Source: Synechococcus sp. CB0101
GTDB taxonomy: Bacteria > Cyanobacteriota > Cyanobacteriia > PCC-6307 > Cyanobiaceae
Reading direction: 5' to 3'
Length of the DNA stretch: 64,000 nt
Assembly (NCBI RefSeq): GCF_000179235.2
Contig: NZ_CP039373.1
Location: 1,457,860-1,521,859 of the forward strand
The notes beneath the pieces were generated by a model, which ran no database searches, was not told the DNA's origin, and worked only from the letters and a program-made list of their open reading frames with translations. This document shows positions 35,020-51,409 of this stretch, piece by piece (position 1 is the stretch's first letter; every line of letters starts with the position of its first letter). A program made the translations under genes and the position numbers.

Positions 35020-35697
35020 TTGACCTCGGTTCTCTTTCAACAGCTCACCGGCATCGCCGTTGTGCTTCTTTGGCTCGCCGTTGTGGTGAGCATCGCTCTC
35101 GCCGTTCGCCATTACTTCCCCGATCAGCGGGAATGGAGCCGCAAGGTGGTGCACATCGGAACTGGCCCGGTGGTGCTGCTGGCCTGGGCACTCGGCATTG
35201 GTCGTGGGGTGGCCCTGCCAGCCGCCATCGCCGTCACCTTGGCCACAGCGCTCAACCACCGCTTCAGGCTGCTGCCCGCCGTAGAAGATGTGGGCCGCCA
35301 TAGCTACGGCACGATCGCCTATGGCGCTTCGATCGCGATCTTGCTTGCGCTGTTCTGGCCGGCTCAACCGCTGGCGGTGGCAGCGGGGGTGCTGGTAATG
35401 GCAATCGGCGATGGCCTGGCGGGCCTGATCGGACCGCAGCTGCGCTCACCCCGCTGGCGCGTGCTCGGTCAGGGGAAATCGCTGGCCGGCACCCTGGCCA
35501 TGGCCGGCGGCGCCCTGGTGGTGCTGATCGTGTTGCAGTGGATGGCCCACGGCCAGGGCCTGGCCGCCCCCGCCCTGCCCAACCTGATCTGGATGGCCCT
35601 GGTGGCCACAGCCCTGGAGCAGCTCAGCGGCTTTGGCCTCGACAACCTCAGCGTTCCCCTCAGCGCTGGCCTGCTCTGGCAGCACTGGGCCACCTAG
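35020..35697 (+). CDS. Phytol kinase / dolichol kinase-family membrane protein
   Basis: The 225-residue, multi-helix product has the CTP-dependent kinase family motifs: REWSRKVVHIGTGP near residue 40, and GDGLAGLIGPQL with LGQGKSLAGTLAM, matching the CDP/CTP-binding loop. Phytol kinase recycles phytol to phytyl phosphate for tocopherol or chlorophyll. It starts at TTG 35020 and ends four bases from a convergent gene. Confidence 0.8.
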   Translation: MTSVLFQQLTGIAVVLLWLAVVVSIALAVRHYFPDQREWSRKVVHIGTGPVVLLAWALGIGRGVALPAAIAVTLATALNHRFRLLPAVEDVGRHSYGTIAYGASIAILLALFWPAQPLAVAAGVLVMAIGDGLAGLIGPQLRSPRWRVLGQGKSLAGTLAMAGGALVVLIVLQWMAHGQGLAAPALPNLIWMALVATALEQLSGFGLDNLSVPLSAGLLWQHWAT

Positions 35698-35701
35698 ACC
35701 G

Positions 35702-36034
35702 TCAGGCCAACAGCATCGCTTCGCAACGCCGCTCCCAGTCGTGCTGTGTGCCCAGGCCAGCCACCAGGCGCCGATCATCGGGCTCCGCCACCAAGCGCAG
35801 CTGCCACTGGCGGATGGCTTCGGCACGCTCCAGCCACACATCCACCACGGTGCTGTGGATGCGATCACGCTCCCAACCGCGCCCCTGAGCCGTGTCCAGC
35901 GCCCACTCCAGCAACGCATCCAGTTGAAACGGCCGAAAGCCAGCAAAGGCAGGCCCCTGGCTCACACTGCTCTGCTCGAGATAAAAGAGCTGCAAAGGAT
36001 CAGACACGCCACAAAACTGCAGGAGATAGGTCAT
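35702..36034 (-). CDS. Uncharacterised small protein downstream of a CIRCE element
   Basis: From ATG 36032-36034, with a strong ribosome site (AGGGGG) about eight bases upstream, the product has 110 residues. An alternative GTG start at 36079 adds 15. It is soluble with a mixed alpha/beta look: MTYLLQFCGVSDPLQLFYL, then a charged helical half rich in Trp, Arg and Glu. No family recognised. The perfect CIRCE 86 bases upstream suggests HrcA-repressed, heat-inducible expression. It is convergent with the kinase gene. Confidence 0.75.
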   Translation of the reverse strand: MTYLLQFCGVSDPLQLFYLEQSSVSQGPAFAGFRPFQLDALLEWALDTAQGRGWERDRIHSTVVDVWLERAEAIRQWQLRLVAEPDDRRLVAGLGTQHDWERRCEAMLLA

Positions 36035-36120
36035 CAGCAGACCCCCTGATTGCGTCTTTCCAAACACTACCCAGCGCACCCCGGAGCGCTGTTCAGCTCA
36101 AACAGTTTGCAAACTCACAG

Positions 36121-36155
36121 TGAATTAGCACTCGCAACACGAGAGTGCTAATTCA
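36121..36155 (-). promoter_or_regulatory. CIRCE element (HrcA operator)
   Basis: The sequence contains TTAGCACTC-N9-GAGTGCTAA exactly (36125-36151). The arms extend to 13 bases (TGAATTAGCACTC and GAGTGCTAATTCA) around the nine-base spacer. This is the consensus HrcA operator, normally before groESL or dnaK. Here it lies 14 bases after the aroG stop and 86 bases before the ATG of the 110-residue gene, both leftward. TTAGCA and TAATTC inside the arms could serve as -35 and -10 with an 18-base spacer. Confidence 0.92.
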
Positions 36156-36168
36156 TCTCTTCACTGGC

Positions 36169-37242
36169 TCAAACCGCAGCCACAGCCTTGCCTTGAGCGT
36201 GGGCAACAGCCCCGGCCAGTTCCGCCAGCACCTCGCGGGTCACGCCGAGATCAATGCAGGCATCGGTGATGCTCTGGCCGTAAGTGAGCTGCGAGAGATC
36301 CGCCGGGATCTTCTGGTTACCAGCCACCAGATGGCTCTCGATCATCACGCCCATCACATGGCGTGAGCCAGCGCGCAGCTGCTCCGCCACCGCCGCGGCC
36401 ACCTCGCCCTGACGGCGGTAGTCCTTGTTGGAGTTGCCGTGGCTGCAATCCACCATCACCCGTGCGGGCAGGCCGTCTTTCTCCAGGGCCGCCGCCGCCG
36501 CTTCGATCGCTTCCGTGTGGAAATTGGTGCCCTGCTTACCGCCCCGCAGCACCAGGTGGCCATCGGGGTTGCCGGTGGTGGTCACGATCGCGGCGCTGCC
36601 GTCTTTGTTGATGCCCAGGAAATGGTGGGGGCGTGCAGCAGCCTCCATCGCATTGATGGCGGTGCTGGCGCTGCCATCGGTGCCGTTTTTAAAGCCGATC
36701 GGCATCGAGAGCCCCGAGGCCATTTCGCGGTGGGTCTGGCTCTCGGTGGTGCGTGCACCAATCGCAGTCCAACTGATCAGATCGGCGATGTACTGGGGCA
36801 CCACCGGATCCAGCAGCTCCGTAGCGGCCGGTAGGCCCATCTCCGCCAGATGCAGCAGCAGGCCGCGGGCCAGCTTCAAGCCGGTGTTGATGTCGTAGCT
36901 GCCATCGAGGTGGGGGTCATTGATCAGGCCCTTCCAACCCACGGTGGTGCGGGGCTTCTCGAAATACACACGCATCACCACCTCCAGCTGATCGCGGTGG
37001 CGCTCGTGCTCTTGGGCAATGGCGGCCGCATACTCCTTGGCGGCGTCCACGTCGTGCACCGAGCAGGGGCCGACGATCACTAGCAAGCGCTGGTCGTCGC
37101 CCCGGAGGATCGCCTTGATCCGCTCGCGCGCCTCACGCACCGTGGCCGCCGCTCCATCACCCAGGGGCAGCTCGCGGTGCAGCAGCGCCGGCGCCACCAG
37201 GGGCCTGGTTTCCACCACGTGGAGATCAGAGGTGGAGATCAT
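36169..37242 (-). CDS. DAHP synthase, class I (AroF/AroG type)
   Basis: The enzyme condenses phosphoenolpyruvate and erythrose 4-phosphate into DAHP, the first shikimate step. The 357-residue product has the class I signatures [37 protein letters not shown] and [13 protein letters not shown] with metal ligands. Which aromatic amino acid inhibits it cannot be read directly. A CIRCE element lies just downstream. aroE is elsewhere in the window. Confidence 0.97.

Positions 37243-49507: not shown

Positions 49508-51409
<1,902 letters not shown>

Follow-up and report, generated by a model that had tools for sequence, protein, structure and literature searches.

We consider it likely that a perfect CIRCE element in Synechococcus sp. 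CB0101 is a working HrcA operator for an uncharacterised gene encoding a 110-residue protein, which would share its repression with the groE chaperonin genes and supply a helper-type product. The comparison of cyanobacterial genomes gives good support to the view that this gene is a conserved member of a small cyanobacterial HrcA regulon, together with groESL and, in numerous other cyanobacteria, a lone groEL. A preliminary description of this DNA had suggested that HrcA has an unrecognised target here; since the element is kept in relatives within the family, hrcA is present, the association recurs at distant loci and the neighbouring genes have changed around it, that suggestion is now well supported as something that we infer from sequence comparison.

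The element and its genomic setting

The window analysed here is a stretch of 64,000 nucleotides, and the features discussed are collected in Table 1. A pattern scan of the window recovers the CIRCE core with no mismatches, and the perfect repeat extends to arms of 13 bases. The core is the sole match in the window at up to three mismatches, a level that was reached in one of 100 shuffled sequences. The start of the 110-residue gene lies 86 nt from the extended arm and 90 nt from the core, and the gene is led by an AGGGGG ribosome-binding site. The stop codon of the DAHP synthase gene, on the same strand, is separated from the inverted repeat by a gap of 17 nt. Neither neighbour of the gene matches a chaperone family, and at up to three mismatches no further CIRCE turns up in the window, which leaves the Hsp70 gene (dnaK, 49508-51409, minus strand) without one. 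On all of these points, the perfect repeat with its 13-base arms, the position and ribosome-binding site of the downstream gene, the lack of a flanking chaperone gene and the bare dnaK, the preliminary description was accurate.

Table 1. Features at and around the candidate HrcA operator (positions in the window).
Feature	Position	Strand	Basis and remarks
CIRCE (candidate HrcA operator)	36121..36155	.	core 36125-36151, TTAGCACTC-N9-GAGTGCTAA; full arms of 13 bp (36121-36133 and 36143-36155)
Second conserved dyad, CTGTTTGAGCTGAACAG	36089..36105	-	family form CTGTTC-N5-GAACAG (here CTGTTT); possible activator site near -40
Inferred -10 element, TAGTGT (TAnnnT)	36064..36069	-	19 nt past second dyad, 55 nt past CIRCE core
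Ribosome-binding site, AGGGGG	36042..36047	-	sequence; AGGAGG in several relatives
Gene for uncharacterised 110-residue protein of many cyanobacteria	35702..36034	-	ORF, homologues, dN/dS
DAHP synthase, same-strand upstream neighbour	36169..37242	-	PF00793, E 6.3e-92; not counted as part of the system
Convergent downstream neighbour, 225 residues	35020..35697	+	no significant Pfam match; outside the system

When the whole genome (2.79 Mb, one contig) is scanned at up to three mismatches, one other CIRCE is found, with one mismatch and lying before groESL, and the reversed control pattern also gives one match; a stricter CIRCE pattern yields two sites against none for the reversed control. A genome lacking hrcA had been named beforehand as grounds for giving up the proposal, and hrcA is present (G000:C1:2729008-2729631). 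With an inverted repeat, a conserved dyad around a free 9-nt spacer and hrcA in the same genome, the site has the properties by which a CIRCE element would be recognised from its sequence.

Conservation of the operator and extent of the regulon

Of 300 family genomes, 117 have a homologue of the 110-residue gene (among the 196 of good quality, 94 do), and one locus was taken from each of 110 of these 117. A CIRCE-like site with at most five mismatches lies 69-118 nt upstream of the gene in 101 of the 110 loci and in 13 of the 15 genera examined, so that the scan of relatives that had been proposed at the outset does find the element before the orthologue, and its lack in all relatives, another outcome named beforehand as grounds against the proposal, is not what is seen; the loci share ancestry, and these counts are not independent events. 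Among the 101 sites, 16 have no mismatch, 6 have one, 38 two, 14 three, 15 four and 12 five. The background is close to nil: in the rest of the 110 loci none of 415,172 positions matches with four mismatches or fewer and six match with five, while the reversed motif is found upstream in one of 110 loci with five mismatches, never better, and elsewhere at two positions with four and eight with five. The arms vary together: each pair remains complementary in 78-100% of the sites, by way of matched changes (TTA/TAA, TTG/CAA, CTG/CAG and TCA/TGA), and the 9-nt loop varies freely.

Seven genomes fall outside the 110-locus counts. In G221 and G275 the homologue match starts right at a contig edge, so that no DNA precedes it; the gene is partial or broken in G096, G107, G269 and G293, where a CIRCE-like site has 2, 1, 0 and 2 mismatches, respectively; and in G279 the contig ends at about the expected position of CIRCE. 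We also note two loci (L335, 2174-2200; L338, 2213-2239) in which a CIRCE-like site stands beside a broken or shortened gene, within the stretch of its expected first residues.

The site is absent from nine loci (six of six in genus g24, the single locus of g32, one of three in g48 and one of 23 in g6), and all nine genomes do have hrcA. The six g24 genomes (L077, L078, L080, L082-L084), which include Synechococcus RCC307, carry the gene and hrcA with neither CIRCE nor the second dyad described below, and would provide a natural control for expression studies. It could be argued from the uniform absence of the site in a genus retaining hrcA that the element is a non-functional relic, or else a chance match; however, it is present in 13 of 15 genera and in five other families against a background near zero, and we give this reading practically no credence.

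Beyond the family, a phylum search with a 48-sequence profile finds homologues in 101 of 386 genomes, 80 of them outside the family. From these 80 loci, 40 were hand-picked, covering most of the list's top and then a spread of others; a site with at most two mismatches lies within 400 nt upstream in 16 of the 40, which belong to five families, and 24 are without one at that threshold. None of 114,072 other positions in these loci matches at a tolerance of four mismatches, and in the upstream regions the reversed control has five at best. Some distant loci carry more than one copy: L249 has a CIRCE variant in three tandem copies before the homologue (1972-1998, 2029-2055 and 2086-2112), and L236 and L238 have a second CIRCE-like copy each. 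A contig titled as a Bifidobacterium breve MAG (L202) carries the cyanobacterial gene, and for that reason looks mis-binned.

The operator is also kept where the surroundings of the gene differ. Among 80 family loci compared over about 2 kb on each side (L034-L113), 14 have none of the window's four neighbouring genes; these 14 are all from genus g5, and every one of them has CIRCE, with one to four mismatches and 105-109 nt before the gene. No DAHP synthase could be located within 2 kb in 14 CIRCE-keeping loci, and the distant loci inspected for their surroundings have neighbours differing from those of the window. The best explanation would be that CIRCE belongs to the 110-residue gene and not to what surrounds it. 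The initial label of an orphan element holds in that no chaperone gene adjoins it, but it falls short in the wider comparison, where the site recurs before the homologues.

The same comparison bears on whether the repeat is instead a terminator or RNA hairpin of DAHP synthase, or a heat-sensing leader hairpin, that merely resembles CIRCE. The repeat lies just past the stop codon of DAHP synthase, RNA copies of inverted repeats are able to fold, and a scan of 35690-36400 places two overlapping terminator-like sites in the leader (36070-36091, minus strand). CIRCE is not among the terminator-like sites of that scan, however, and 35600-36400 gives no Rfam match at E up to 1. The letters of the HrcA consensus are conserved beyond what pairing alone would require, and the element persists where no DAHP synthase is found nearby, as well as in distant genomes. 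We regard such an origin as highly improbable.

In the family sample hrcA is found in 204 of 300 genomes, and in 112 of the 117 that have the 110-residue gene; the five others are 73-88% complete. Conversely, 92 of the 204 hrcA genomes have no detected copy of the gene. The skew in co-occurrence is strong (Fisher p 7e-19), a value inflated by shared ancestry. With the stricter CIRCE pattern, 148 of 300 family genomes give a match, and with its reversed control two do. The regulon was sampled as one CIRCE locus per genome (30 from the family pattern search and 29 from a second search, the genomes' further sites standing outside the sample), and within 1.5 kb of these 59 loci lie groESL in 45, groEL alone in 11, the 110-residue gene in three and none of these in zero. 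Operator, conservation, hrcA, regulon sample and protein family are shown in the sequences themselves; the regulatory role that we build on them is a proposal.

Promoter geometry and a second dyad

The operator of the 110-residue gene differs from that of groE in its position. Of 57 groE loci taken, 55 could be oriented, and in 45 of these a TAnnnT hexamer starts 4 nt before CIRCE, an arrangement with the operator abutting the -10 that is usual for groE without defining it; it occurs at none of the 101 CIRCE-bearing family loci of the 110-residue gene. A non-abutting operator is unusual for a simple repressor site. What is new, then, is that CIRCE of groE abuts a -10-like TAnnnT and CIRCE of this gene does not, having a second dyad and a TAnnnT downstream of it instead.

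The second dyad is conserved in the family: 58 of 110 leaders contain GTTC-N4-8-GAAC, a pattern present 27 times in 426,345 bp elsewhere in the loci. When dyads are scored out of 12 against CTGTTC-N5-GAACAG, a TAnnnT follows at exactly 19 nt in all 46 leaders scoring 11 or 12, and in 72 of the 82 scoring at least 9, the overall rate of TAnnnT being 0.0084 per leader position. Most g5 loci, and those of g24, have a weak dyad or none. Measured from CIRCE, TAnnnT starts after 55 or 56 nt in 52 of 101 loci, after 78-79 nt in 24 and after 66 nt in six. A consensus promoter scan of 35690-36400 gives no sigma-70 match, and the transcription start that we place here would follow from the dyad and TAGTGT, whose positions would put the centre of CIRCE near -81. 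The two overlapping terminator-like hairpins already mentioned (shuffle mean 0.6) fall in the stretch that separates the second dyad from the inferred -10. Of the 16 distant loci with a site, six, all belonging to family f7, show a hexamer of the TA type 55-57 nt past CIRCE; because these leaders are AT-rich and hold other TA-type hexamers as well, the spacing is a weak hint.

An alternative is that HrcA acts at a second promoter whose start lies inside CIRCE, the dyad and its TAnnnT forming a separate, HrcA-independent promoter. The groES start of Synechocystis has been mapped to the CIRCE loop, in the portion of the report available (PMC2662882), and several distant loci are AT-rich immediately 5' of CIRCE. 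In the family, though, a TAnnnT ending at position 2 of CIRCE is found in none of 101 loci. Between -45 and +9 of the CIRCE start, any given TAnnnT offset is shared by at most two of them, against the 45 of 55 groE loci with the abutting hexamer. We think a promoter of this kind unlikely, if still worth bearing in mind.

NtcA-type class II promoters have GTA-N8-TAC near -41.5 and a TAN3T -10 element. The leader of the 110-residue gene resembles them in that a dyad stands about 20 nt before TAnnnT with no standard -35, and differs in the letters and spacing of the dyad, GTTC-N5-GAAC. Variants include wobble forms of the type GTTT...GAAC, and the mirror change was not seen; an RNA-hairpin reading of the dyad was nevertheless set aside because of its exact 19-nt spacing to TAnnnT. 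A regulon of wider extent was also looked for, and none was recognised among the 28 perfect-dyad sites in 17 of 30 chosen genomes. Eleven of these sites are at the 110-residue gene, and the other 17 (in 16 loci) comprise 12 inside a listed ORF, three that are terminator-like and two that are intergenic. The two intergenic sites are one place common to two genomes (L323 and L324, both 1001-1017), and another place recurs in three (L330, L331 and L333, 1001-1017). In L318, L320 and L321 (1001-1017) the dyad stands between A-rich and T-rich runs, and these sites resemble rho-independent terminators.

The protein, its control and wider meaning

Purifying selection acts on the 110-residue reading frame, with dN/dS values of 0.013-0.267 in comparisons with nine relatives, and across 33 aligned members L38, W54 and W67 are invariant. 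The window protein is small and overall not hydrophobic, and with a pI of 4.89 it is acidic. It has no match in Pfam or NCBIfam, and no convincing sequence match to a chaperone or heat-shock family was obtained from Pfam, NCBIfam or PDB. Scattered weak hits were rejected as inconsistent, among them Csf3 for four of 48 homologues (best E 0.0014), DUF2889 for one of 48 (E 0.012) and, in the set of 33 reaching distant families, DUF5845 for one (E 0.0037) and GrpE for two (E 0.059). Profile searches of PDB, with best E values of 0.34 and 0.017 (a putative HTH regulator, ybaQ), are too weak for use. An AlphaFold2 model built from 54 sequences is weak (pLDDT 63.6, pTM 0.56), and Foldseek against PDB returns no match at E up to 0.001 (best 1.4), a result in which a weak model could hide a structural match. 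Homologues were absent from viral contigs searched with the profile, from plasmids searched with a distant homologue and from phages searched with the window protein. With a structure model of this quality, we can no more than guess at what the protein does; our guess is a soluble protein that probably helps, or partners with, the chaperonin system of cyanobacteria.

In the excerpts available, the targets of CIRCE in cyanobacteria are groESL and groEL (PMC2662882, PMC8400943, PMC5381637, PMC4755962, PMC2758279, PMC4390874, PMC4227741), one of these papers also naming another heat regulator, Sll1130 (PMC4390874); part of a review states that the influence of HrcA may extend to genes lacking CIRCE (PMC7760821). 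A heat regulator such as Sll1130 might conceivably bind the second dyad. The operator sequence is the same as in the CIRCE/HrcA control of groESL and groEL2 that such excerpts describe for Synechocystis, Limnospira and the Stigonematales, and CB0101 too has hrcA and a CIRCE before groESL; the present target, in contrast, has no convincing sequence match to a known chaperone family, and its operator lies upstream of the inferred promoter rather than against the -10. A precedent is wcw_0502 of the Chlamydiota, a non-chaperone gene with an intergenic CIRCE for which, in the part of the paper seen, HrcA occupancy by ChIP-qPCR and heat induction were measured (PMC12038028). In both cases CIRCE stands before a lineage-specific non-chaperone gene and is conserved among homologues; the phylum is different, the proteins are unrelated by annotation, and the cyanobacterial case is known from sequence. 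The open-access literature yielded no earlier report of the 110-residue gene as an HrcA target, a search in which, lacking the locus tags of model strains, such a report could be missed.

We propose that, in the absence of stress, GroEL would keep HrcA active and HrcA would occupy the operator and hold the gene down, a step that draws on the GroEL-HrcA feedback outlined in the consulted parts of two papers (PMC7760821, PMC9696931). Heat or misfolded protein would draw GroEL off, HrcA would release the operator, and the gene would be expressed along with the chaperonin. Since the operator lies some 81 bp upstream of the inferred start, off the core promoter, HrcA probably acts by hindering an activator that would occupy the second dyad, near -40, rather than by blocking polymerase. 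Binding of HrcA and the existence of this activator are themselves things that we infer, and the unusual position of the operator means that the sign of HrcA control is not certain.

HrcA might, for example, be an activator or co-regulator at the upstream site, so that the gene would fall on loss of HrcA. The site would be centred near -81, a position that class I activators can take, and the recurrent spacings between CIRCE and TAnnnT (55 or 56, 66 and 78-79 nt) would agree with such a role. What has been seen of the literature, however, describes HrcA as a repressor, and the titles and abstract openings retrieved with activation terms report no activation by it. We hold activation to be improbable, and HrcA to be probably a repressor acting from upstream. 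There is, finally, a slim chance of something larger: that the gene represents an ancient, phylum-wide third branch of the HrcA regulon encoding an unrecognised chaperonin-linked factor, under a mode of control new for HrcA in which the -81 operator works together with a regulator of CTGTTC-N5-GAACAG, HrcA being possibly an activator.

The control exerted by HrcA is usually seen as a chaperonin feedback loop, and the 110-residue gene is a strong candidate for an overlooked component of that loop, because its operator has been kept in distant cyanobacteria while the neighbouring genes changed. The upstream position of the operator calls into question the simple picture of HrcA as a repressor that blocks the promoter, and whether HrcA controls the gene could be put to a direct test in any tractable cyanobacterium with a copy of it. 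As judged from these genomes, the case points to what may be an overlooked member of the cyanobacterial heat-shock response.
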